Shown here: one piece after another, positions 10,268-24,078 of the stretch | How positions within the stretch are numbered: position 1 is the first letter of the stretch | Layout: each line of letters opens with the position of its first letter | NCBI GenBank assembly: GCA_016284575.1 | Contig: JAEEPD010000059.1 | Coordinates: 1 to 34,663, forward strand | DNA: 34,663 nucleotides | Source of the DNA: Bacillota bacterium | GTDB taxonomy: Bacteria; Bacillota; Clostridia; Peptostreptococcales; Anaerovoracaceae | Direction: 5' to 3' | Translations under genes and position numbers: made by a program | Notes under the pieces: generated by a model | The model's input: only the letters and a program-made list of their open reading frames with translations | What the model was told of the DNA's origin: nothing | Databases searched by the model: none

Positions 10268-11752
10268 CTACTTCAGCAGCTCCAGAGCCTTTTCCAGCTG
10301 GGGATCCGTGCCGTCCAGGTTCATCCATGAATTGAAGCGGTCCTCTATGATCTTCAGGGTCAGGTTATCCAGATTGCCATAAGCGTAGGAGCCTGCATCC
10401 TTCTGAATGGACCGGAGAGCAGCCATGGTCTTTCCATCCATGTGACCGTTGGCATCCACATCGTAGCCCAGGATGCTGAGCCTCTGCTGAGCCGCAAGCA
10501 CGTTGAGGCCGAACTCGCCGGCATAGTAGCGCTCAGTGCTCAGGGGCGCCATGTCCTCAATAAGCGCCACAGCGTCGGAATCGGTCATGTTGCCGTGTCT
10601 GTATACAACCACGTCGGGAATAACGCCGACGCCATTGATATCCACATTGCCGGGACCCTTGAACTCCATGACGGAAAGCTTGAAGCTGTCGCCGTTGTCC
10701 ACATCCGCCGTGGTCTGAGCCAGTCCCTTGCCGAAGCTGGTCACCCCTACCACCTTGGCAGCGCCGTTCTCCTTAAGAGCGGACGCCAGGCATTCGGAGG
10801 CGGAGGCGGTATACTCGTTTATAAGTACCACCATGGGGAGCTTCGCCTGCTTGTTCGGATTGGAAAGCTCGTATTCGATGAGCCTGCCCTGGCGGTAGAA
10901 CAGGGCGATCACGCCCTCATCCAGCAGCTGGTCCGCAATGTCCGTGGCCTGGAAAAGAAGGCCTCCGCCGTTGTCCCGAAGGTCCAGGATCAGGGAATCG
11001 GCTCCCCTGTCCACCAGGTCTGCCTTGGCTTCTGCAAACTCCTTGGCGGTGTTGGTGGAAAAGCTGGAGATCTCTATGTAGCCTGTATTTCCTGCCATCA
11101 TCTCGCTGAACACTGTGGAATTGACCAGGGGCACCCGCTCCAGGGTGAAGCTGCGGATCCTGCCCTCAGCATCAAAGCTCAGCTGCACCTTCGTGCCCTC
11201 CTTGCCGCGGACCTTCAGGGCCACCTCGGAGATGCTCATACCGCTGACGCTTACGCCATCCACTTCGGTGAGATACCAGCCGGCTCTTACACCGGCAGCG
11301 AAGGCTGTGCCCTTCTTGTTTACCTCGGTAACCAGGATGCGGTTACCGTCGGACTGCATGGTTATGCCAACGCCGTAGTAGGAATTATCCAGCTGAGTGG
11401 CCAGAGAGGGCACCTCATCCTCCACAAAGTAGTATTCGCTCCACCTGTCCCCCAGGGCGCTGAACATGCCCTGGTACACACCCCGTATCAGGTCCTCCCG
11501 GGTGACGGTGCCGTTGTAGTAGGTCTCCAGATAGTCCATCACCTCTTCAATATTTTTCAGGCGGCTCTTCTGAAGCTCCTCCTGTGACAGCTCCGCCGCA
11601 TAGACCATGCCGGGAGCCTCGAAACCGAAGGCCGAAGCCAGCAGCATCAGCACGTAGAAGAAGGAACCAGCCAGCATGGCAATCACTATTATCAGGGCCG
11701 TGGTCCTTGCCAGACGCTTTTTTCTCTCCTGGGTCTTAGTTACATTCGCCAT
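10268..11752 (-). CDS. S41 family C-terminal processing peptidase (PDZ, TM anchor, C-terminal peptidoglycan-binding-like domain)
   Basis: N-terminal TM; PDZ segment; LILDLRDNGGGLL, INEYTASASECLASALKENGAAKVVGVTSFGKG catalytic region; PG-binding-like C-terminus. Confidence 0.9.
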   Translation of the reverse strand: MANVTKTQERKKRLARTTALIIVIAMLAGSFFYVLMLLASAFGFEAPGMVYAAELSQEELQKSRLKNIEEVMDYLETYYNGTVTREDLIRGVYQGMFSALGDRWSEYYFVEDEVPSLATQLDNSYYGVGITMQSDGNRILVTEVNKKGTAFAAGVRAGWYLTEVDGVSVSGMSISEVALKVRGKEGTKVQLSFDAEGRIRSFTLERVPLVNSTVFSEMMAGNTGYIEISSFSTNTAKEFAEAKADLVDRGADSLILDLRDNGGGLLFQATDIADQLLDEGVIALFYRQGRLIEYELSNPNKQAKLPMVVLINEYTASASECLASALKENGAAKVVGVTSFGKGLAQTTADVDNGDSFKLSVMEFKGPGNVDINGVGVIPDVVVYRHGNMTDSDAVALIEDMAPLSTERYYAGEFGLNVLAAQQRLSILGYDVDANGHMDGKTMAALRSIQKDAGSYAYGNLDNLTLKIIEDRFNSWMNLDGTDPQLEKALELLK

Positions 11753-11761
11753 TCTATCCTC

Positions 11762-12229
11762 CTAATTCATCTTCCCGGGCTTGCTCAGGATCTCGATATC
11801 GAAGCTGTTGCGGCTTTCGGAGAGTCCCTTGACGCTGAGGCTGTAGTCGATGGAGATCTTGTCCAGCTCCGCGGCGCTCTTTCCAAGTCCGCTGAGCTTA
11901 TCGGTCAGCAGCTCCAGCCCGAAATTGCCGTAGGGGGTCACATAGATGCCGTTGAAGCGCTTGCCCTCCTCGAATTCCATCAGGTTTTCGTCGTCGCCCC
12001 ACTCGGTGCTGCGTCTGACCTTGACCTTTTTCGGTGTGATGGTGATGTGGGTGGTGACGCCGCCCATGCCGTATTCCTCCATCTCCGGATAGACTATCAG
12101 GGTGCTGCGCCCCACGGTGCCGATCTTGCCCTCGGTTATGAATTCTATTACGTTATCTTCCTTAACTTCGCCGTCCTCACGGAAGTAGCTTTTTCCCGTG
12201 ATCTTCAGCATTACATCTTCCATTGCCAT
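11762..12229 (-). CDS. DUF1934 domain-containing protein (ORF extends to 12262)
   Basis: Beta-barrel-like ~155-aa protein in the position and with the sequence pattern typical of the family. Confidence 0.7.
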   Translation of the reverse strand: MAMEDVMLKITGKSYFREDGEVKEDNVIEFITEGKIGTVGRSTLIVYPEMEEYGMGGVTTHITITPKKVKVRRSTEWGDDENLMEFEEGKRFNGIYVTPYGNFGLELLTDKLSGLGKSAAELDKISIDYSLSVKGLSESRNSFDIEILSKPGKMN

Positions 12230-12274
12230 TTTTGTTCCCCTTTTCGATCGTTTACTGTCCAAACCCCTTTGGAT

Positions 12275-13210
12275 CTATTTTTTCGAAGCGGATCTGAGAA
12301 GCTCCGTCAGCTCCTCCCTGCCGAAATGGTACTTTTTCCTGCAGAAGGTGCAGGAAAGCTCCGCCTCGCCGTCCTCGTCGATGATGGTCTTAAGGTCCTT
12401 TTCTCCGATGGACACCAGGGCCCTTGCCATGCGCTCTCTGCTGCAGTCGCAGTGCCAGCTGATCTGCCTGCGGTCCAGGATCTCGGGATAGTATTCCTGA
12501 GGCACATCCTTGAATATCAGCTTAAGAAGCTCCTCGCAGATCTGAAGCTCGCCGGGCTCCTTTCCCATGCGCGCTGTGCAGTTTTCCTTTGCGTCGTTTA
12601 TGAGAAGGGTCAGGGAGTCCATGTAGAAAAGCATGTCCTCCAGCGCCTTCAGAGCCTCCTCGCTGGCGTCCGGCAGCACCTGGATGACCATTCCGCCGGC
12701 GGACTCCACCCCGCCGTCCACGCCAAAGCGCACCCCAAGAGCCACGCTGGAGGGCTGCTGCTCGGAGACGGTAAAGTACTGGGTCAGGTCCTCCGCTATC
12801 TCACCGGAGACCAGGTCCACCCTGCCCACATAGGGCTCCTTAAGCCCCAGGTCCTTGATCACGGTAAGAGTGCCGGCACCCACAGCCGCTCCCACGTCCA
12901 GCTTTCCAGGCCCCTTAAGAGGCAGGTCCAGATAGGGATTGGAAATGTAGGCCTTGACCTCGCCCATGCCGTTGGCCGCCGCCAGTATCTCCTGCGCGGG
13001 ACCGTCACCCTTTATCTGAAGGGTCATGCGGGCGTGCTCGTCCTTGAGCATCAGCCCCATGATCCCTGCCCCTGTCATGGTGCGGCCAAGCGCCGCCCCT
13101 GCCAGAGGCGTGCATTCGTGGATGGCTATGGCCTCCCGGACCATTTCCGTGGTGACTGTAAGATAAACGCGGTAGGAACCGCTTCTGTCGACTGCTATGA
13201 CTGTGTTCAT
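12275..13210 (-). CDS. hslO: Redox-regulated chaperone Hsp33
   Basis: C-terminal CDCSRERM...CTFC zinc centre, GAALGRTMTGAGIMG, GDGPAQEI motifs. Confidence 0.92.
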   Translation of the reverse strand: MNTVIAVDRSGSYRVYLTVTTEMVREAIAIHECTPLAGAALGRTMTGAGIMGLMLKDEHARMTLQIKGDGPAQEILAAANGMGEVKAYISNPYLDLPLKGPGKLDVGAAVGAGTLTVIKDLGLKEPYVGRVDLVSGEIAEDLTQYFTVSEQQPSSVALGVRFGVDGGVESAGGMVIQVLPDASEEALKALEDMLFYMDSLTLLINDAKENCTARMGKEPGELQICEELLKLIFKDVPQEYYPEILDRRQISWHCDCSRERMARALVSIGEKDLKTIIDEDGEAELSCTFCRKKYHFGREELTELLRSASKK

Positions 13211-13365
13211 GTTTCCCCTTCTATGTGACGGGCAGCCCGGGGGCGCCCGGAAATCCTTTTTAACTGAATAATTATTTTAACACATAAGGCGCCTTTTGTG
13301 GACGGATGTGATATATTATTTCGTGAAATATTGGTGAATTCGGAGGGCCCCGGGAGGAGCCGTTT

Positions 13366-14325
13366 ATGGATATAAAGATAAACGCGTACGCAAAAATTAA
13401 CCTCAAGCTCAAGGTGCTGGGAGACCTTCCCGGCGGCTACCACGAGCTGTATAATCACATGCAGGCCGTGGGGCTCTGCGACAGGGTCTATATCGACTAT
13501 CACGACATGGGAGCTGTATCAGCCAAGGAGGCTGAAGGCTACCGGCCCCGGGTGATACTGCACCCCGGAAAGCCTTATCTTCCACGGGATGAGAGGAATC
13601 TGGCCTGGAAGGCGGCGGAGCTGATGCACCGGCGCTTTCACCCGGACAGGAGGGAGAAATTCTTTATCTCTGTGGAAAAGAATATACCCGTTGCGGCGGG
13701 TCTTGCAGGGGGTTCTGCTGACGGAGCCGCTGTTCTTACCGGCCTTGCCAGGCTCTGGGGACTGATACCGGGTTATGGCGAGGGCCCTGAGACTGCCAAT
13801 GCAGACCAGCCCGGCGCTGAAGTCAGTGCTGCAGACAGGTCTGAAGCTGCAGCAGGCAGCCCAGAGCGTCCCAGCCTTCAGCAGCTTGAGCCTCTGATAG
13901 AGCTGGCAAAGGAGCTGGGCTCTGATGTCCCCTTCTCCCTGCTGGCCCAGAACGGATATCCGGCGGCAGTCGGGACCGGCCGGGGCACAGAGCTGGAGCT
14001 GGTCACCTCTGAAAGCTACAAGGTCCTTATCTACACCCCGAATTTTCCCCTGTCCACAAAGGCTGTCTACGGAGAGTTGAAGGATGGTGACGCCAGCGAA
14101 TTCAACGACCTCGAGCCTCCCGCAAAGCGCCTGAGCCCCGAGATCGAAGCCGTGATGGAGCTGATGAAGGGCATAGGAACGCCCCTCCGCACCCAGCTCT
14201 CCGGCAGCGGCCCCTCGGTCTTCAACCTCTACAGCAATAAAGGCCCCTGCCCCTCCCTCAAGGAGGTCAAGGCAGCCCTTGCAAACCGCGAAGGGAACAT
14301 CTACCTTGGGGAGACGCTGGAGTAG
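13366..14325 (+). CDS. ispE: 4-diphosphocytidyl-2-C-methyl-D-erythritol kinase
   Basis: NAYAKINLKLKV, NIPVAAGLAGGSADGAA, LGSDVPF, LSGSGPSVF GHMP-kinase motifs. Confidence 0.92.
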   Translation: MDIKINAYAKINLKLKVLGDLPGGYHELYNHMQAVGLCDRVYIDYHDMGAVSAKEAEGYRPRVILHPGKPYLPRDERNLAWKAAELMHRRFHPDRREKFFISVEKNIPVAAGLAGGSADGAAVLTGLARLWGLIPGYGEGPETANADQPGAEVSAADRSEAAAGSPERPSLQQLEPLIELAKELGSDVPFSLLAQNGYPAAVGTGRGTELELVTSESYKVLIYTPNFPLSTKAVYGELKDGDASEFNDLEPPAKRLSPEIEAVMELMKGIGTPLRTQLSGSGPSVFNLYSNKGPCPSLKEVKAALANREGNIYLGETLE

Positions 14326-14442: not shown

Positions 14443-15498
14443 CTATTGCTTAAGCACTGCGGCGAAGGCGGTCCAGCAGTCGTCGTGGAGGGAGTCGATT
14501 ATCTCAAAGCCCGCGTCTTCTATGGCTTTGCGGCATCTGTCCTCGGTGCCGTCGATAATGCCGCTGCTTATATAAAGGCCTCTGCCCCGGCAGTGAGCGG
14601 CCACGTCCGGGGACAGCATCACCACAAGGTCGGAGATCAGATTGGCCACCACGGCATCGGCGTGGTAGTTAAGGCCTTTGGTAAGGTCCCCCTGAACCGC
14701 CTGTATTTTATCCTCGCAGCCGTTGATCCTTGCGTTGCGCCTGGTGCTGTCTATGGCCTCCGGGTCTATGTCCACCGCAAGTATGCGGGACGCACCCAGG
14801 CGGTCGGCGACAACAGAGAGTATCCCTGTGCCGCAGCCCACGTCCAGGACCGCATCCCCCGGACGCAGCCACTTTTCCATGAGCCGCACCACAAGATAGG
14901 TGGTGGCGCTGGTGCCTGTGCCAAAGGCCAGGCCCGGGTCTATGGAGATGACCTGCTCACCGGGCTTGGGGTCGTACTCCTTCCAGTCCGGCTTAACCAC
15001 GAAGTGCTCGCTTATCCTGCTGGGGACGTAGTACTCCTCCCACTTGTGGAGCCAGTCCTGATCGTCCACGGTGGAGACGGAGGCGTCGTAGCTTTTAAGG
15101 AGCTGGGTCAGCCCCCAGTCTCTTCTTCGGATCTGGTCCGCGCTCAGCCGCTCTCTTGCTATCCCGGAGGCGCCGCGCTCGGTGCGGGAGTCCGAAGGGT
15201 CCAGATCGGCAGCCCCGGGTCGGCCAGCCCCGTCCCCGGCACCGGCAGCTCCACCTGAGCCTTCAGCACCCTCCTCCGCCTCTATGTAGAAGCAGACGCT
15301 GGGCCTTTCCCTAAACTGCGCCAGCACAGACTCGTCCACCGCGTTCCAGAACCAGCCTATGGACTTCTCCGGGCTGAAAAGCTCCGCGTCCGTAGGGTCG
15401 TTTATGATGATCTCCTCGATCCCCAGCTTTGCCAGCTCAGCCTCCAGTGCCTCCAGCCCCTCCTGTTCGCAGTATATCTTGTATTCCTTGTATTTCAT
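14443..15498 (-). CDS. prmA: Ribosomal protein L11 methyltransferase
   Basis: DPGLAFGTGTSATT, DVGCGTGILSVVADRLGA, VVANLISDLVV motifs. Confidence 0.9.
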   Translation of the reverse strand: MKYKEYKIYCEQEGLEALEAELAKLGIEEIIINDPTDAELFSPEKSIGWFWNAVDESVLAQFRERPSVCFYIEAEEGAEGSGGAAGAGDGAGRPGAADLDPSDSRTERGASGIARERLSADQIRRRDWGLTQLLKSYDASVSTVDDQDWLHKWEEYYVPSRISEHFVVKPDWKEYDPKPGEQVISIDPGLAFGTGTSATTYLVVRLMEKWLRPGDAVLDVGCGTGILSVVADRLGASRILAVDIDPEAIDSTRRNARINGCEDKIQAVQGDLTKGLNYHADAVVANLISDLVVMLSPDVAAHCRGRGLYISSGIIDGTEDRCRKAIEDAGFEIIDSLHDDCWTAFAAVLKQ

Positions 15499-15567: not shown

Positions 15568-18500
15568 CTACTCCAGGAAATAGCGCTTCCTCTGCTCCGT
15601 GCTCAGCGTCCTGCCGCCGATGGCCCGGTCCGCCAGCTCCAGCAGCTCATTTCCTTCCATGCATCTGAGCAGGTAAAGCACGGTGCCGTCCCCGGTCCTT
15701 CCTATCAGCAGGCGGCTGCCGTCAGCCGCTGCGTCCTGAACGAAAAGCTCCCTGTCGTGAAGATCCAGCAGGCAGAAGCCGTCGACGGCCCTGCAGACTG
15801 CGCCGTCCTCCATGTAGGCCCCGTCTCTTCCGAAGAAGAACTCGGCCTTGTCCTCCGCGGGGATCTCGCCCTCTGCAGGCTCGTAAGGCGCCAGTGTCTC
15901 TCCGTCGAAGCTGTACCAGGCTCCGCCGCCGTCGGTGCTGTAGAGCAGCATCGCGCTGCCGTCTGCATTCAGCAGAGTCCTGGTGACCCCCAGGATGTCC
16001 AGCTCCAGATTTTCTCCGCTCCTGAGGTCCAGTATGTGGGTTTTATTCGAATAGATATAGACCGAAAGCTGATCGCCCCAGCCGGGCAGATTCGCGTCTG
16101 TTACCGTGCCGCCATAGCTCTTCCACCACTGGTGGCCGGAGCCGGCGCTGGTCCAGGTCTCCGTATCTATCACCAGCACATACTGGGCGTCGTTCTGCAC
16201 CCCGTGGATGATAATATACTTTCCCTGCCGTTCGAAATCGTTCGTCCACCAGCTGTCCTGAACGAGCTCGGAATGCAGCAGCTCCATGGTCCTTGAATCG
16301 AAGACATAAAAGACCCAGCGGCCGCCGAAAACGGTAAAATCGTCATCTGTCCAGACCGTCACCAGCTCAGAGCTGTCATCTGTTATTTCCTTTCCGTCCC
16401 CGTCCTTACCCCGGGCCTCCGGGTTGATGGTCTTCAGCTTTTCCCCTGTTTCCGCGTCGTAGACGAAGATCACGGACTTTCCGCTGTCATGAGCCTGGCC
16501 GAAGCGGACAATGAAGCGATCTCCCACCCTCGACATTTTATTGGCGTAGAGCACATTCATGCGGGATATGGTCTCAGCCACCGTATTCTCCCCGGTCCTG
16601 GTGTCCATCACGGTCAGATAGTATTCCTGATTCTCGCTCCTGTAGTACCAGAGCTTTTTTCCGTCCTTCGTAAGGACCGCCTTTGACGCCCCCATGATGC
16701 CGTTGCTCAGGGTCTGCGCCATGGCAGACTCGCTGCTCTTGTCCTGCCTCATCAGCCGGGACTTTTCGGGGCCCTTCAGCAGTATGTAGCTGTCGTCCAG
16801 AGAATTGCCCCATTCATCGTAGTTCACATAGCAGGCTTCTTCTATGTCGAAGTCCGCCTTGATGGTCTGCCGTATATCGCCGTAGGAGATGACAAGCACG
16901 GTATCCTCTTCGGAATCGCAGCAGAGCAGCGTGTTTCCGTCTGCCGAATAGTGCATGGTATCCACCGAGTTCCACTGGGTGGATACGGCCTCGGCCTTCT
17001 GCTGTGCCAGATCTATTATATAGAGCTTGTCCTGCTCCGTGGTGACTGCGATCTTGTCCTCCGTGGGGGAGGCGATCATGGACTCGAAATAGCTGCCGTC
17101 CAGCTCCTTGCAGCTTATCCGTGCCAGCTGCTCCTCGGAAACCGAATCCCAGATGAATATCCAGGCGTCCGAAAGCCCCACCACGTAGCGGCTGTCGAAG
17201 GAGCCGATGTAGTCGGAAACGAAATCCCTGCTCTGGGTGCTGTCGTATATGATCTCCCCGTCACTTCCGGGGATCTCGGTGCTGTAGCTGTGGATGATGC
17301 GCTCTTCAAAGCTCTCCGCATATGCGTTTGTACGGACCATAATGACGCTGGAGCTCCCCGGCCCGATTATGTTCGTAAGCACCAGATCGCTGTAGCGGTC
17401 GACACTTTCGGTGTTGGCAAGACCATCAGCCGGGAAGCGGACCAGATCCGAGAGGGAATTCTTTTCCGTATCGATCTCCCGGCTCCAGGTGTAGATGTTG
17501 TAGCTGTAGTACCAGGCAAATTCTGAAATGTCCCTCTCGGCTATCAGCCCGTCATCCCACCACTTGAAGTAAGTGTTGGGATAGAGCAGTGAATTTGTAA
17601 CCGTATCCCCCGACATCCTGAGCATGCCCACGCCGGTGGAATCCGTGTAGACTATGCGGGTAAGATCGTTTCCGATCACCACCTGGAAGGGGGCCCTGTC
17701 AAACTTCAGGGGGTAGTCCTTCTCCTCGCCGTTTTCCAGCCTGAAGCAGGCGGTATAGCCGGGCAGGGATTCGGAGCAGACTGCCAGGGTGACAGAATTG
17801 GCCCGGAAGCTCTTTATGGGGAAATTGAGATCCGTAAGGGGCAGGTAATTGCTGCTGACCCCGGAGATCAAAGCGCTTCTCAAGGCCGCCACAGCCTCCT
17901 CCGCCACGGGGCGGTCTGGGTCGTCGAAGTCATCCGGGAGGGCTTCCCTTGCCAGCAGCGTGGCCAGCATGCGGTCCCCGCCGGAATCCAGCAGGTCCTG
18001 GGCTCCGCTGGCCAGGAATTTGGATTGGGAGAGCAGCGCAGCGTTCCTCTCCGCCGTTATCTGGCGGTTTTTGACCACCGCATAGCCCAGAAAGCCGGAA
18101 AGCAGGGCCACGGCAGCCGCAAGCACGCCTGCGGCGATGCGGGTCCTTCTCTGCCTGGCCCTCTGCTTAAGGTCGTCGAAATTGACCCCCAGCATGGGAG
18201 CCAGTATTCGCAGCTTCTCCTCCTTCAGCTTCTTGAGGGACTCCTCAACTGTGGCGCCCCGGACGTCAGCCGCCAGAGGCTCCACCTCCACCCGCCTTCC
18301 GTCCTCCTCCCTGAAGCGCAGCTGCTCCGGGAAGGAATCCGCGGGTTCACCCTCCGCCAGTATGGTAAGGATGCGGTCCCGCCTGCCCAGGGAGATGAAA
18401 TAGTCCAGCTCCTCCATGCACCAGCGGGACTGGAGGTAGCGGGGAGAGCAGACGCATATGAGCCACTCGGAGTTCTCCAGGGCATGGTGGATGTCATCCC

Positions 18501-18690
18501 CCAGATCCACCGAAAGGGGAAGCTCGTCCTGATCCCTGAAGACCCGTCCCATACGGCTTATCCCCAGGGACTTTTTCAGCGCCCCGGGGATAGCATAGGT
18601 CTCGATCTGAGTATGCAGTTTTCTTGCTATGTCCTGATCCGGCGACTGATGCCGGTAGGATATGAAGGCCTTGTAACTGTACTGCTCCAT
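15568..18690 (-). CDS. TIR domain - single TM - beta-propeller/WD40-like protein
   Basis: N-terminal TIR (YKAFISYRHQ, FRDQDELP, WLICVCSPRYLQSRWCMEEL); TM IAAGVLAAAVALLSGFLGYAVV; ~750-aa repeat-rich C-terminal region with WD40-like blades. Confidence 0.85.
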   Translation of the reverse strand: MEQYSYKAFISYRHQSPDQDIARKLHTQIETYAIPGALKKSLGISRMGRVFRDQDELPLSVDLGDDIHHALENSEWLICVCSPRYLQSRWCMEELDYFISLGRRDRILTILAEGEPADSFPEQLRFREEDGRRVEVEPLAADVRGATVEESLKKLKEEKLRILAPMLGVNFDDLKQRARQRRTRIAAGVLAAAVALLSGFLGYAVVKNRQITAERNAALLSQSKFLASGAQDLLDSGGDRMLATLLAREALPDDFDDPDRPVAEEAVAALRSALISGVSSNYLPLTDLNFPIKSFRANSVTLAVCSESLPGYTACFRLENGEEKDYPLKFDRAPFQVVIGNDLTRIVYTDSTGVGMLRMSGDTVTNSLLYPNTYFKWWDDGLIAERDISEFAWYYSYNIYTWSREIDTEKNSLSDLVRFPADGLANTESVDRYSDLVLTNIIGPGSSSVIMVRTNAYAESFEERIIHSYSTEIPGSDGEIIYDSTQSRDFVSDYIGSFDSRYVVGLSDAWIFIWDSVSEEQLARISCKELDGSYFESMIASPTEDKIAVTTEQDKLYIIDLAQQKAEAVSTQWNSVDTMHYSADGNTLLCCDSEEDTVLVISYGDIRQTIKADFDIEEACYVNYDEWGNSLDDSYILLKGPEKSRLMRQDKSSESAMAQTLSNGIMGASKAVLTKDGKKLWYYRSENQEYYLTVMDTRTGENTVAETISRMNVLYANKMSRVGDRFIVRFGQAHDSGKSVIFVYDAETGEKLKTINPEARGKDGDGKEITDDSSELVTVWTDDDFTVFGGRWVFYVFDSRTMELLHSELVQDSWWTNDFERQGKYIIIHGVQNDAQYVLVIDTETWTSAGSGHQWWKSYGGTVTDANLPGWGDQLSVYIYSNKTHILDLRSGENLELDILGVTRTLLNADGSAMLLYSTDGGGAWYSFDGETLAPYEPAEGEIPAEDKAEFFFGRDGAYMEDGAVCRAVDGFCLLDLHDRELFVQDAAADGSRLLIGRTGDGTVLYLLRCMEGNELLELADRAIGGRTLSTEQRKRYFLE

Positions 18691-18696
18691 TTTATG

Positions 18697-19719
18697 TTAT
18701 GCTCTGCAAACAGCAGCTGCGATCAGCTTTGCGCCCTCCTCGATGTCCTTTATGCAGGCCGTCTCCTGAGGCGTGTGCATGTAGCGCAGAGGCAGGGAAA
18801 CTCCGCCGGTGGGAACGCCGCCGCGGCCCTTGTGAATGGGACCGCCGTCGGTGCCGCCCACAAGGCACACATCCCTCTGGACCTTCAGCTTGAGGGCCTT
18901 TGCGGTCTCCTCGATGTGGGCCACCACCGCGGGATGGCAGATAACGGAGCTGTCCATGATCATCACAGCCGGGCCCTTGCCTGTGCAGCAGGTGGCATCG
19001 GCCTCGCCGCCGGGAACATCGTTGGAATCAGTCACATCAAATATGAAGGCCATGTCCGGATCGACACCGTAGCCTGCGGTCTGAGCGCCTCTGGTGCCCA
19101 CCTCCTCCTGAACGGTGAACACGAAATAGAGGTCGTTTTCGCTTTCCTCCAGCTGCTCCATGGCCAGCAGCATCATGGCGCAGCAGGCCCTGTCGTCCAT
19201 GTAGGGACCGGTGATGTACTTGCCATTGGCGCTTACATAGCAGGGGCTGTCATAGACTGCCACATCCCCCACCTTTACGTACTTTTCGGCCTCCTCTTTC
19301 TTGCTTACGCCCAGGTCTATGTAGAGTCTGTCGAAGCTAAGATCCTTGGCCTCGGTGCCGGAATTGGCGTGGATGGTGCCCACGGTGCCGTTTGCAAAGC
19401 GCACAGGAAGCCCCACAATGTCCATGGGAGCGATGCCGCCCAGCTTTCCGAACTTAAGATAGCCGTCCCCGGTGATCCTGGTGACCATAAGCCCCAGGGA
19501 ATCCATGTGGGCCGCCATCAGAAGCTTCTGCGGAGCAGCCTCTGCCATATTGTCTGCAGAGGTAGGGGCCCTGTGGCAGATGAGATTGCCCAGGGTATCC
19601 ACCCTGCACTCAAAGCCCCTGTCCTCGGCCATTTTCTTTATAACATCGCGTACCTGGCCTTCCCAGCCGCTGGGGCCGTAGGCCTTGCTTAAAAGTTTAA
19701 CCAGTTCAACTGTATTCAT
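18697..19719 (-). CDS. M42 family metallopeptidase (third of tandem trio)
   Basis: AAHMDSLGL, MDDRACCAMM, VQEEVGTRGA, IFDVTDSND, RYMHTPQE metal/catalytic motifs. Confidence 0.9.
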   Translation of the reverse strand: MNTVELVKLLSKAYGPSGWEGQVRDVIKKMAEDRGFECRVDTLGNLICHRAPTSADNMAEAAPQKLLMAAHMDSLGLMVTRITGDGYLKFGKLGGIAPMDIVGLPVRFANGTVGTIHANSGTEAKDLSFDRLYIDLGVSKKEEAEKYVKVGDVAVYDSPCYVSANGKYITGPYMDDRACCAMMLLAMEQLEESENDLYFVFTVQEEVGTRGAQTAGYGVDPDMAFIFDVTDSNDVPGGEADATCCTGKGPAVMIMDSSVICHPAVVAHIEETAKALKLKVQRDVCLVGGTDGGPIHKGRGGVPTGGVSLPLRYMHTPQETACIKDIEEGAKLIAAAVCRA

Positions 19720-20805
19720 CTAATTAGCCTTCCCTTCTGCTAAAGCCTCAACAAAAAGCTTTGCCAGCCTGTATGCATTGTCCATGTCCTCCTCGGAGGC
19801 GATGGTGGATGCGGAGTGGATATTTCTTACGGCGACGGAGATGTTAGCGACCCTAATGCCCTCTAAGGAGCGCTGTATGGTGCTGGCATCGGTTCCGCCG
19901 GCGATCTTCTGCTTCACCTGCCAGGGCAGTCCCGCCTCATCCGCAAGACCCGTCAGAAGCTCAAAAAGCCCCCTGTCGTAGATGGCGCCGCCGTCCACAA
20001 GGCCTATCACAGGTCCTGCGCCCACGACGGTTATCTTGTTGTCTGCGGAGACCGTGGGAAGATCAGAGCAGCTGGCGCCCTCGAAAACTATGGCGATGTC
20101 CGGAGCCACACTGTAGGCCGCCCCATAGGCGCCTCTGGTGCCCAGCTCCTCCTGGACCGTGAAGGCATAGGTAACATCCATGGGAAGCTCCTCCTTCATC
20201 AGCTTCAGCATCATAGCGCAGCCGAAGCGGTCGTCTATGGCCTTGGCCTTGACGCGGCCTTCGCCGAATTCGACGAAATCGCTGTGGAAGACCACCTCGT
20301 CTCCCAGAGCCACATTCTCCATAGCCTCTTCCCTGCTGGAGGCGCCGATGTCTATGTACATCTCCTTAAAGTCCGGAGCCACCTCCCTGTCCTCCTTGGT
20401 TGTCAGGTGGATGGCCTTAAGACCTATGACGCCGGGCACCATGGCCTGGCCCACGTAGACCTTGCGGCCCAGGACCACCCGCTTGTCTATGCCGCCCATG
20501 CAGGCAAAGCGCAGATAGCCGTTGTCCTCTATGTGGGTGACGATGAAGCCGATCTCGTCCATGTGGGCAGCGATCATGAGCTTTGGAATGGAGCCTTCAG
20601 CCAGCCTCCCCGCCTTTTTAGCAGCCTTTACGGCCTTGGGGGAAGCCTTTTTTACGATATACAGCGTGCCCATGATGTCCGTGCGCATGTCCTCTTCGGA
20701 CACGCCGCAGTCCTCCATGGCAGTGCTTTTAATGAACTCCCTTACCGGGCCCTCGAAGCTGGATACTCCCGGCAGCAGGCAGAGCTCCTCTAAATATTCA
20801 AGCAT
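19720..20805 (-). CDS. M42 family metallopeptidase (second of tandem trio)
   Basis: AAHMDEIGF, AIDDRFGCAM, VQEELGTRGA, GGTDAS, RNIHSAS. Confidence 0.9.
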   Translation of the reverse strand: MLEYLEELCLLPGVSSFEGPVREFIKSTAMEDCGVSEEDMRTDIMGTLYIVKKASPKAVKAAKKAGRLAEGSIPKLMIAAHMDEIGFIVTHIEDNGYLRFACMGGIDKRVVLGRKVYVGQAMVPGVIGLKAIHLTTKEDREVAPDFKEMYIDIGASSREEAMENVALGDEVVFHSDFVEFGEGRVKAKAIDDRFGCAMMLKLMKEELPMDVTYAFTVQEELGTRGAYGAAYSVAPDIAIVFEGASCSDLPTVSADNKITVVGAGPVIGLVDGGAIYDRGLFELLTGLADEAGLPWQVKQKIAGGTDASTIQRSLEGIRVANISVAVRNIHSASTIASEEDMDNAYRLAKLFVEALAEGKAN

Positions 20806-21839
20806 GTTCTTACCTCCTCCCCGGGTTCAAGGGCGAATTCAGCCATCAGCTCGCCCAGAAGCTCCAGATCCCGCAGGTTTATGACCTCCTGGGGGGTATG
20901 CATGTAGCGCAGGGGCAGGGACAGCACCGCGGTGGCGATCCCCTCCCTCTGGGTCTGGACGGCCCAGGCATCTGTTCCGGTGCGGCTGGGCGACACGGTT
21001 ATCTGCACGGGTATGCGCTTTTCAGCGGCAGCGGCGGTTATGCCGTGAGCCACAGCGGGCGCCACATTGGCTCCGATGGGCATTCTGGGACCCTCGCCCA
21101 GCTTTGAAATATAGTCTGTGGGCTTGCAGTCCGGGGTCCAGGCCTGGCAGACGTCGCTGGCGATGCACACGTCAGGATCGATGGCAAAGGAGGTCATGGT
21201 GGCGCCTCTGAGGCCCACCTCCTCGCTTATGGTCCCAACAAAATACACATCCCAGTGCAGCTGGCGATCCTTAAGAAGCTCCGCAGCGCGGCAGACAGCC
21301 AGGAAGCAGGCTCTGTCATCCAGGGACTTGCTGCAGACGCAGTCCTTTCCAAGCTCAAAGAAGGGTGAGCGGAAGCTTACGGGAGTGCCCACCGGGATCT
21401 CCCTTTCCGCCCTCTTCTGGCTCAGACCCACATCTATGCGAAGGTCCTTCATGGGTATGGATTTATTCATGGATTCGGGGCTTGCGCCATGGGGAGCAGC
21501 GGCTCCTATCACACCGAAATGGCGCTTTTTCGACAGCACGGTCACCTCTCTTCCGGGAAGCATCCTCTGATCCACTCCGCCCAGCTGGCCGAAGCGGAGG
21601 AAGCCCTCCTCGTGACCCGTAACTATCAGGCCGATCTCGTCGATGTGGGCGCAGATCATCAGCTTTCTGGCATTTTCCCTGCCGCAGCGCCTGATGCCCA
21701 CCACGTTATACATGGGATCCACGTAGATTTCGTCCACAAAGGGCTCAAGGATCCCTGCGCACAGCCCGGAGACATTGCATTCGAAGCCGCTGGGAGCAGT
21801 CTCGGTGCACAGCCTCTCGAGATCATCAAGTATGTTCAT
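20790..21839 (-). CDS. M42 family metallopeptidase (first of tandem trio)
   Basis: CAHIDEIGL, SLDDRACFLAV, ISEEVGLRGA, RTGTDAWAV, RYMHTPQE; RBS AAAGGAG. Confidence 0.9.
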   Translation of the reverse strand: MNILDDLERLCTETAPSGFECNVSGLCAGILEPFVDEIYVDPMYNVVGIRRCGRENARKLMICAHIDEIGLIVTGHEEGFLRFGQLGGVDQRMLPGREVTVLSKKRHFGVIGAAAPHGASPESMNKSIPMKDLRIDVGLSQKRAEREIPVGTPVSFRSPFFELGKDCVCSKSLDDRACFLAVCRAAELLKDRQLHWDVYFVGTISEEVGLRGATMTSFAIDPDVCIASDVCQAWTPDCKPTDYISKLGEGPRMPIGANVAPAVAHGITAAAAEKRIPVQITVSPSRTGTDAWAVQTQREGIATAVLSLPLRYMHTPQEVINLRDLELLGELMAEFALEPGEEVRTCLNI

Positions 21840-21912: not shown

Positions 21913-24078
21913 CTAATCCCAAAGTCTGTCGGGATAGATTCCTTCCTTCTTTTTGTTGAGCATGGCATCCACCACCAGCTGACGGTCCTCCTTGTAGGTA
22001 ACGCCGTACCACTTGTCGGGGGAATGGAGCACCTTCACATCCGCCTTGCCCTCCTGGATGAGCTCGGAGGTGACGATGGGAATGTAGAACTCGCCCTTTA
22101 AGGGGTTCTCTCTCAGGATCCTGTAGATGTTTTCAGGAAGCCTTGCCTTGAGCTCGGTGATGATGCTGGGGGTGAAGCCAAAGAGGTTCATGGACACAGG
22201 AGTGCCTACGGGCACATCGGTCCAGCTGGCGCCGTCATCCTCTGTGAACTGGATCTTGTCGCCGTTCCACTGGATCTTGGTGCGCTCGTCGATCTTCTTG
22301 AGATGGCCCTGATCATCCATGGTGCAGACCCCTCTTGCCACGCTGCCGTGCTCGGAGAGGGTGTTTTCCACCTGATATGCCACCATGCAGTAATCATACT
22401 TGTCGCCGTCCTTGGCATGGCTCAGGTAGTCGTAGATGGTCTTGAAGGCGCCGGGGCCGTAGTAGTCATCGGCATTGACCACCGCAAAGGGCGCGTCGAT
22501 GATGTTTCTGGCAGCCAGAATGGCGTGACCGGTGCCCCAGGGCTTGACTCTGCCCTCGGGGATCTGTATGCCTGCAGGGATATCGGTCATGTCCTGATAG
22601 GCGTAGAGTATGTTCATGTGCTTTGCGGCACCGCGCTCCATCAGAGCCTTGAAATCCTCCTCGATCTCCTTCTTGATGATGCAGATGGCGGTCTCAAAGC
22701 CGGCCTTCCAGGCATCGTAAAGGGTGAAGTCGATGATGATCTCTCCGTTGGAGCCGATCTGATCTATCTGCTTGAGTCCGCCGTAGCGGCTGCCCATGCC
22801 TGCGGCCATTATGACAAGAACGGGCTTCTTGCGGTCCGGATCCGCCTTTTCAGATTCTGCTGCAGCTGCTGCAGCCTCAGCCTCAAGTCTTGCTGCCTCG
22901 GCCCTTTCAGCCTCCATCGCAGTCAGTCCATCCGCCATTTTGTTCACCGCCTCCTCGATATTTTCCCTGCTTGTGGAAAGATTCATGCGAACGAAGGGAG
23001 CAAACCTGTCGCCCCCGAACCAGCTGCCGTAATCGAAGGCCAGGCCGCATCTGTTTTCGCAGAAATCGCTGACCTCCTCCTGGGTCTGGAAATATTTATT
23101 CAGGCTGAGCCAGAGCAGATAGGTGCCCTGAAGGCTGCCCACCTCGATCTCAGGAGCCCTTTCCGCAAGCTGAGCCTTTACATACTCGTAATTGCTCCAG
23201 ATCTGGGCCTTCACCTCCTCCAGCCACTCTCTGCCCTTTCTGTAGGCAGCGGCGGCAGCCACGTAGCCGAAGGCATTGCCGGAGCTCACGTGGATGCGGT
23301 TCTGGAAGTCCTTGTAGCGGGCCCTAAGCTCATCGTCCGGAATGATGATTATGGAGTTCTGGGCAGCGGCTATGTTGAAACTCTTGCTGGCAGAGGTCAT
23401 TGTTATAAGGAAGCTGTCATAGTCCCCAAGGGTCGCTGTGGGGATGTGCTTGTGGTCCTCCCACTCGAAATCCTGATGGATCTCGTCGGAGACCACATAC
23501 ACTCCGTGCTTTTCGCAGATCTCCATCAGCTTTTTTATCTCCTCAGCGGTCCAGATGCGGCCCACGGGATTGGCCGGAGAGCAGAAAATGAAGAGCTTGA
23601 CGCCGTTTTCCACGATATCCTGCTCAAAGCGCTCAAAATCTATGGAATAATCCATCCCGCTGCGGACAAGGTCGCACATTATGAGCTTGCGGTCGTTGTC
23701 CTTTACGGCGTTGAGCATGGGATAATAGACCGGGGTAAGGGTGATGACGCCGTCTCCCGGCTTTGTGAGCATCAGAACGCTCCAGTAGAAGCCGGAGACC
23801 ACGCCGGGGCTGAAGCAGATCCATTCACGCTTTACATCATAGCCGTGATACATGCTCTCCCACTCGATGAAGGCATCGTAGTAGTCATCCGGGGGCATGG
23901 CGTAGCCCAGGGGAACATTCCTTGCATAGTCCGACAGGGCATCCCTGATGCAGTCTGCGCACTCAAAATCCATGTCTGCGATCCATAAGGGCAGCAGCTC
24001 GTCGCTGCCGTACTTCGACCACATACCGTCCCACTTGACGCTGTCCATACCGCGTCTGTCGATATACTTTAGACTCAT
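21913..24078 (-). CDS. Fusion: MalY/PatB-type PLP aminotransferase/C-S lyase + nucleotidyltransferase
   Basis: N-term: LPLWIADMDFECADCI, FCSPANPVGR, VVSDEIHQDF, TSASKSFNIAA (PLP Lys). C-term: VLVIMAAGMGSRYGGLKQIDQIG, AVVNADDYYG. Joined by Ala/Glu helical linker. Confidence 0.88.
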   Translation of the reverse strand: MSLKYIDRRGMDSVKWDGMWSKYGSDELLPLWIADMDFECADCIRDALSDYARNVPLGYAMPPDDYYDAFIEWESMYHGYDVKREWICFSPGVVSGFYWSVLMLTKPGDGVITLTPVYYPMLNAVKDNDRKLIMCDLVRSGMDYSIDFERFEQDIVENGVKLFIFCSPANPVGRIWTAEEIKKLMEICEKHGVYVVSDEIHQDFEWEDHKHIPTATLGDYDSFLITMTSASKSFNIAAAQNSIIIIPDDELRARYKDFQNRIHVSSGNAFGYVAAAAAYRKGREWLEEVKAQIWSNYEYVKAQLAERAPEIEVGSLQGTYLLWLSLNKYFQTQEEVSDFCENRCGLAFDYGSWFGGDRFAPFVRMNLSTSRENIEEAVNKMADGLTAMEAERAEAARLEAEAAAAAAESEKADPDRKKPVLVIMAAGMGSRYGGLKQIDQIGSNGEIIIDFTLYDAWKAGFETAICIIKKEIEEDFKALMERGAAKHMNILYAYQDMTDIPAGIQIPEGRVKPWGTGHAILAARNIIDAPFAVVNADDYYGPGAFKTIYDYLSHAKDGDKYDYCMVAYQVENTLSEHGSVARGVCTMDDQGHLKKIDERTKIQWNGDKIQFTEDDGASWTDVPVGTPVSMNLFGFTPSIITELKARLPENIYRILRENPLKGEFYIPIVTSELIQEGKADVKVLHSPDKWYGVTYKEDRQLVVDAMLNKKKEGIYPDRLWD

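Follow-up and report, generated by a model that had tools for sequence, protein, structure and literature searches.

The gene at positions 15568-18690 (minus strand) of the 34,663-nucleotide stretch of Bacillota bacterium contig JAEEPD010000059.1 analysed here (the window) encodes a protein with an N-terminal TIR domain, a single transmembrane (TM) segment and a long tail predicted to form a double beta-propeller. We propose, with a probability of roughly 0.6, that this protein is a ligand-gated membrane TIR NADase or cyclase, that is, a single-pass receptor-enzyme. Its architecture probably resembles that of an immune receptor: a TIR domain of the enzymatic type that is predicted to be cytosolic, a single helix crossing the membrane, and a large double beta-propeller that evolves fast and probably lies outside the cell. 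The open reading frame (ORF) begins with ATG and has no internal stops. The layout of the gene is as follows.

15568-18690, minus strand: TIR-TM-double beta-propeller gene, 1040 amino acids, intact ORF, 100% self-match
18256-18690, minus strand: TIR domain, residues 1-145 (Pfam TIR_2, AlphaFold2, Foldseek)
18517-18540, minus strand: FRDQDELP, residues 51-58, BB loop region; F51, R52, D53, E56 and L57 invariant in 77 sequences
18409-18411, minus strand: E94 codon GAG, putative catalytic glutamate (alignment to plant TIRs; invariance)
17986-18180, minus strand: continuous helix including the TM segment, residues 171-235 (AlphaFold2 secondary structure)
18073-18129, minus strand: single TM segment, residues 188-206, mean hydropathy 2.13
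17866-17973, minus strand: helical linker, residues 240-275 (AlphaFold2)
15667-17847, minus strand: double beta-propeller region, residues 282-1008, about 57 strands or about 14 blades (AlphaFold2, Foldseek)

The TIR domain and its putative catalytic glutamate

Residues 9-116 matched the Pfam TIR_2 profile with 47.4 bits (cut-off 28), and a second profile, TIR, also passed (37.7 bits against a cut-off of 21.3). The AlphaFold model of residues 1-215, built on a 77-sequence alignment, had a mean predicted local distance difference test score (pLDDT) of 93 and a predicted template modelling score (pTM) of 0.84. Searched with Foldseek, it gave a probability of 1.00 against RUN1, AbTir and SARM1 (flavodoxin-like TIR fold), and its nearest solved structures were RUN1, L7, AbTir bound to 3AD, RPP1 and SARM1. 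A preliminary description of this DNA had assigned a TIR domain from FISYRH (residues 9-14) and FRDQDELP, and had aligned the second Glu of WCMEEL by eye with the NADase catalytic Glu of SARM1. Both motifs are present, the modelled fold is that of a TIR, the putative site is intact rather than degenerate, and the Glu in question is indeed residue 94, with codon 18409-18411.

The segment containing this residue, SPRYLQSRWCMEEL (residues 82-95), was compared with known structures by sequence searches of the PDB, using both a single sequence and a profile. SRWCMEEL was aligned to SKWCLMEL in L6 and STWCLEEL in ROQ1, which places E94 at the position of the catalytic Glu of plant TIRs; the WCxxE motif of AT1G72930 was also aligned to the E94 region and AbTir was matched too. 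The register proposed by eye is thus the one found for L6, ROQ1 and AbTir, and the SARM1 TIR is among the nearest folds. S88, W90 and E94 showed no variation, either across the 77 aligned sequences or across the 46 full-length ones. Since the patterns [YF]xAFISYRH and FRDxxEL served to retrieve the relatives, the invariance of these two motifs is partly circular, while that of WxxxE, which was not among the patterns, is not. Every enzymatic TIR examined needs this Glu and self-association (PMC10022894). From its sequence, the TIR domain of the window protein is likely to be enzymatic. With the enzymatic TIRs of plants (L6, RUN1, RPP1), SARM1 and AbTir it shares the TIR fold, the FRDxxEL and SxWCxxE motifs and the register of the Glu, but in the window protein the TIR is N-terminal, membrane anchored and joined to a double propeller, and its activity is predicted here.

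The propeller tail and its placement relative to the membrane

Pfam profiles gave only weak WD40-type propeller matches on the tail; clearer WD40/propeller matches were obtained for a paralogue on another contig (C202) of the same genome. The full-length AlphaFold2 model (46-sequence alignment; mean pLDDT 76, pTM 0.55) was all-beta from residue 282 to residue 1008, with segments 409-428, 850-873 and 944-984 modelled below a pLDDT of 50. Foldseek searches with the tail returned mostly tandem-propeller proteins at E ~1e-17 (UTP and IFT-A subunits, Pwp2, Utp21 and Apaf-1). We take the 57 modelled strands, with moderate confidence, as about 14 blades, i.e. two seven-bladed WD40-type propellers. 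The WD40-like blades that had been read from the sequence were supported by the AlphaFold and Foldseek results.

On which side of the membrane does the propeller lie? As had been described, there is one hydrophobic segment (residues 188-206), and it is preceded by an Arg-rich flank, QRARQRRTR, with six Lys and Arg residues before it and three after. All 84 relatives, a set that includes the window protein, had this excess of Lys and Arg on the N-terminal side (mean 6.2 versus 2.4), and none of the 84 tails contained a second hydrophobic segment of at least 1.6. With a positive-inside bias and a single TM segment, the TIR is predicted to be cytosolic and the propeller extracytoplasmic. In net acidity the tails (6.9%) resembled exported neighbours (7.8%) more than cytosolic ones (2.4%), these reference sets being rough gene calls. 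Taken together with the cysteine content considered below, these sequence features make it fairly likely that the propeller is outside the cell. The same plan (cytosolic output domain, single TM segment and propeller sensor) occurs in the PknD-type receptor kinases, and PknD, with its extracellular propeller sensor, offers an earlier example of such a topology (PMC3601408). The window protein differs in having a TIR instead of a kinase as its output, and two propellers instead of one with six blades.

The separate parts of the window protein are already known, and the combination of a catalytic TIR, one TM segment and a tandem propeller may be undescribed. A literature search, for which most subscription papers and the main paper on the SLOG/SLATT/RyR network were beyond reach, found no description of a TIR-TM-propeller family, and the main text of a survey of TIR sequence groups mentions neither propellers nor WD40 (PMC7075850).

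TIR output is likewise joined to a sensor module in TIR-APAZ, TIR-STING and TIR-SAVED proteins, whose sensors recognise cytosolic nucleic acids or cyclic nucleotides. We know of none of this type with a TM-propeller tail.

Relatives, pseudo-TIR partners and linked genes

At least 574 relatives are present in GTDB contigs, and most of the 79 that were fetched belong to anaerobic Bacillota of the rumen, the gut and elsewhere. Within the same taxonomic family the distribution is patchy (41 of 351 genomes; 12 of 157 high-quality ones). Across 1035 pairs the mean identity was 57% in the TIR and 17% in the tail, and the TIR was the more similar part in every one of the 1035. Conservation of the TIR against divergence of the tail fits a constant output and a diversifying sensor. 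The window's own genome, which is 84% complete, encodes three such TIR-TM-propeller proteins, located in different branches of the TIR tree; they are therefore not recent duplicates. A fixed output with a diversified sensor, held in small repertoires, fits the pattern of a receptor family, and the hundreds of uncharacterised gut and rumen relatives suggest a receptor family that signals via molecules derived from nicotinamide adenine dinucleotide (NAD+).

Two further observations concern TIR genes elsewhere. Butyrivibrio sp. FCS014 has three TIR-TM-propeller genes in tandem (L077:1708-11018) with closely similar TIR parts, a recent local expansion. The window's own genome also encodes two TIR proteins of other kinds (L006:15222-17753 and L009:6662-9565, on contigs C6 and C185): one is an 844-residue frame in which a TIR is fused to an apparent STAND/AP-ATPase region, and the other a 968-residue frame with apparently two TIR-like regions.

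Tandem pairs of an intact and a degenerate TIR-TM gene, which usually overlap, occur at 21 loci outside the window; at one of them (L132) the intact neighbour is truncated at the contig end. The degenerate copies have lost the FISYRH and FRDxxEL motifs. In the column of E94 they carry Arg (19 of 21), Lys (1) or Cys (1), compared to Glu in 21 of 21 intact copies, although the two groups had been sorted solely by the presence of the N-terminal motif and not by E94. One class of pairs (17 loci) combines an intact partner of about 690-780 residues with a degenerate one of about 290-445, the tail being of TPR type by Pfam in L159; the other class has propeller tails (L025, L157, L158 and L132). The window protein has no pseudo-TIR partner. 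From these sequences we infer that the degenerate TIR may be a trans-acting regulator or a co-subunit. Such Glu-to-Arg partners would be a natural case of TIR active-site regulation in trans, relevant to TIR pairs in plants and animals. Directly upstream of the pseudo-TIR/TIR-TPR pair, two loci (L159:6278-8800 and L160:1029-3824) also encode a signal-peptide-bearing protein of 840-930 residues, a possible third component that had no Pfam matches in L159.

Clustering of neighbouring ORFs over the 79 relative loci revealed two kinds of linked gene. A DHH (in some cases DHH-DHHA1) phosphoesterase of about 510 residues with a C-terminal extension lies beside or near the TIR gene at 20 of the 79. 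It may be on either side and in either orientation, and in several loci it overlaps the TIR gene at the frame level. The TIR tree requires at least ten changes of the DHH label, so the link has been made or lost repeatedly. Other loci, including that of the closest relative over the full length (L024), have a SLOG-like/membrane protein, an HD/RyR-like protein or both, whose genes seem to share an operon with the TIR gene or, in L032, are convergent to it. The first of these neighbours (549-557 residues) has an N-terminal SLOG-like region (YAcAr) and a DUF4231-like membrane region, both below the Pfam cut-off. We read the second (680-730 residues), from its sequence features, as a putative HD-type phosphohydrolase with a C-terminal RyR-like motif; Pfam RyR scored 15.6 bits in L040, below the cut-off, and L032 had no Pfam matches. 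Neighbours in L064 also bear RyR regions, one of them above the cut-off. SLOG and SLATT are domains of an NAD+-ADP-ribose signalling network (PMC9503650). The linked SLOG, RyR and DHH genes would be concrete candidates for receivers and signal-degrading enzymes. ABC-transporter genes, present at 18 loci in the same clustering, were discarded as generic neighbours. The paired and linked loci are listed here.

Intact/degenerate TIR pairs: L159, L160, L163-L177, L025, L132, L157, L158
DHH-linked: L048, L049, L054, L061, L066, L067, L072, L076, L078-L080, L084, L085, L087, L088, L090, L091, L093, L095, L099
SLOG-like-membrane (DUF4231/SLATT-like) and/or HD/RyR-like: L024:11087-16812, L032:10817-14465, L034:10405-12075, L040:10484-12670, L065:10733-14445

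Proposed mechanism, competing explanations and the locus

How might such a protein work? At rest, the cytosolic N-terminal TIR would be kept inactive, in a monomer or a loose dimer. The extracytoplasmic tandem WD40-type propellers would bind a cue from the envelope or the environment, and binding would cluster or re-orient the proteins via the long continuous TM helix and the linker. The TIR domains could then assemble a composite active site, in which E94 would catalyse NAD+ cleavage, yielding either ADP-ribose or an isomer of cyclic ADP-ribose. Probable targets of this product in some relatives are the neighbouring SLOG-SLATT-like, RyR-like or DHH-type proteins. No partner was found beside the window gene, and its effect in its own genome would come either from a signal that diffuses to an unlinked receiver or from local depletion of NAD+. 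In this model we infer the topology, the ligand gating, the NAD+ chemistry and the downstream effect. If it is correct, Clostridia of the gut and rumen harbour transmembrane TIR receptors that form a widespread and so far undescribed class. Their NAD+-based signalling would be driven by cues at or outside the membrane and not by cytosolic phage sensing, and the view of bacterial TIRs as mainly intracellular suicide switches would change.

Several findings weigh against a receptor-enzyme of this kind. The confidence of the tail model is moderate, the window has none of the partner genes known from relatives, and searches of the 84%-complete genome for homologues of the SLOG-SLATT, HD/RyR and DHH proteins came back empty (those for DHH and RyR had no positive control). 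In addition, the cysteine content of the tails (median 1.22%) is close to that of cytosolic neighbours (1.28%) and above that of exported ones (0.84%, p 5e-4). The external propeller of the preliminary description is thus supported by the positive-inside rule and by tail acidity, but not by cysteine content. The cysteine value would be expected if the propeller stayed in the cytosol, with the hydrophobic segment serving only as an anchor (re-entrant or C-in) and an intracellular cue, e.g. a phage protein, being sensed as in STAND-WD40 proteins. The best structural neighbours of the tail are also cytosolic tandem propellers, including that of the Apaf-1 apoptosome, and cytosolic proteins of the STAND type, APAF-1 among them, commonly carry WD40 tails (PMC13174449). 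Nevertheless, a cytosolic propeller seems doubtful to us, if the strongest of the competing explanations: it would have to accommodate an N-in bias in all 84 relatives, a single TM segment of 19 residues with no second one to bring the tail back into the cytosol, and an acidity like that of exported proteins. A TIR that only recruits another TIR or an effector, as in MyD88/TLR signalling, appears unlikely. A scaffold role is found for many metazoan TIRs with a similar fold, MyD88, MAL and TRAM were among the Foldseek matches of the TIR model, and the pairing of TIRs with Glu-less TIRs in relatives makes part of the system non-catalytic; however, the solved structures nearest to the TIR model belong to enzymatic TIRs, all intact copies share E94 and its neighbouring residues, and it is exactly E94 that the degenerate partners lose.

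TIR enzymes are common as defence effectors, and the window gene could be a chromosomal, Thoeris-like abortive-infection gene acting against phage, with its effector missing or unlinked; this would overlap with the receptor-enzyme in chemistry and differ in trigger. In Thoeris, ThsB makes cyclic ADP-ribose isomers that ThsA senses with a SLOG domain, and a TIR with a conserved Glu is common to ThsB and the window protein. Further likeness is limited to those relatives that adjoin a SLOG-like protein, the SLOG-like, DUF4231-like membrane neighbour in L025, L032, L034 and L065 resembling the ThsB/ThsA logic. In contrast, the window has no ThsA, and ThsB has neither a TM segment nor a propeller. 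Membership of Thoeris itself was rejected on scores (NCBIfam model, 21.2 of 220 bits; PADLOC ThsB, 18.4 bits; Pfam ThsB_TIR, 16.9 against 21.2) and on neighbours (three M42 genes and PrmA, with no adjacent ThsA). PADLOC matches were weak throughout, the best reaching 23 bits. The setting of the gene, described below, also speaks against an anti-phage role, which we consider rather improbable.

The genes around the TIR gene in the window are given for context only and are not claimed as part of a system.

20790-21839, minus strand: M42 aminopeptidase (Pfam)
19720-20805, minus strand: M42 aminopeptidase (Pfam)
18697-19719, minus strand: M42 aminopeptidase (Pfam PF05343)
14443-15498, minus strand: PrmA ribosomal L11 methyltransferase, downstream neighbour (Pfam PF06325)
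10268-14325: CtpA-DUF1934-HslO-IspE block (ispE and ctpA named from sequence)

The TIR gene is followed by prmA, ispE, hslO, DUF1934 and ctpA. Two genomes of another genus (G289 and G290) also have hslO, ispE and the TIR gene in this order. In G289, DUF1934 and ctpA lie past hslO, and a divergent LysR/EamA pair homologous to that of the window is on the other side of the TIR gene; in G290, DUF1934 is close to the end of the stretch. Congeners have the ctpA-DUF1934-hslO-ispE block without a TIR gene in the sequence examined. The G+C content of the TIR gene equals that of its flanks, and none of the scanned window neighbours is a convincing defence gene. Housekeeping neighbours, conserved position and uniform composition therefore indicate a resident chromosomal gene that is gained or lost at a fixed place. 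It is not typical cargo of a mobile defence island, and carriage by phages or plasmids was rejected, as matches were absent from phage records and present in only 14 plasmid records (all <60% identity).

The start codon of the TIR gene lies 6 nucleotides past the stop of the third M42 gene, on the same strand and with no promoter-like match between them. These features would suit a TIR gene that extends the function of the M42 peptidase operon by sensing a peptide or proteolysis. We consider this very improbable, since in sister genomes (G004 and G005) the M42 trio is followed by other genes and no TIR, and neither M42 nor PrmA was near the TIR gene in any of the 81 relative loci searched; on this absence a conserved functional link to M42 was rejected. 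The preliminary description had also envisaged challenging an operon with phage, and here it did not hold, as the neighbours are the three M42 genes and prmA, with no partner known from relatives nearby. Its interpretation otherwise stood for the TIR fold, the putative active site, the single TM segment, the propeller tail and the prediction of an N-in/C-out orientation.

Returning to the receptor-enzyme, Toll-like and IL-1 receptors are likewise single-pass proteins with a cytosolic TIR, but the window protein has the reverse order (N-terminal TIR), propellers in place of leucine-rich repeats or immunoglobulin domains, and an apparently catalytic TIR. We regard the likeness as a convergent layout and do not claim homology of the whole proteins. 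More speculatively, the family might be a bacterial counterpart of Toll receptors, in which a large set of single-pass catalytic TIRs reads surface cues through diversified extracellular propellers. Some lineages would then use obligate pairs of active and pseudo-TIRs (with a Glu-to-Arg gate or co-subunit), an NAD+-derived nucleotide would pass to SLOG-SLATT-like membrane effectors, and DHH phosphoesterases could be off-switches.

One other gene of the window is unusual in its own right. An ORF of 721 residues at 21913-24078 (minus strand) fuses a class I/II aminotransferase to a nucleotidyltransferase, the two halves of which are separate frames in the sister genome G004 (L151).

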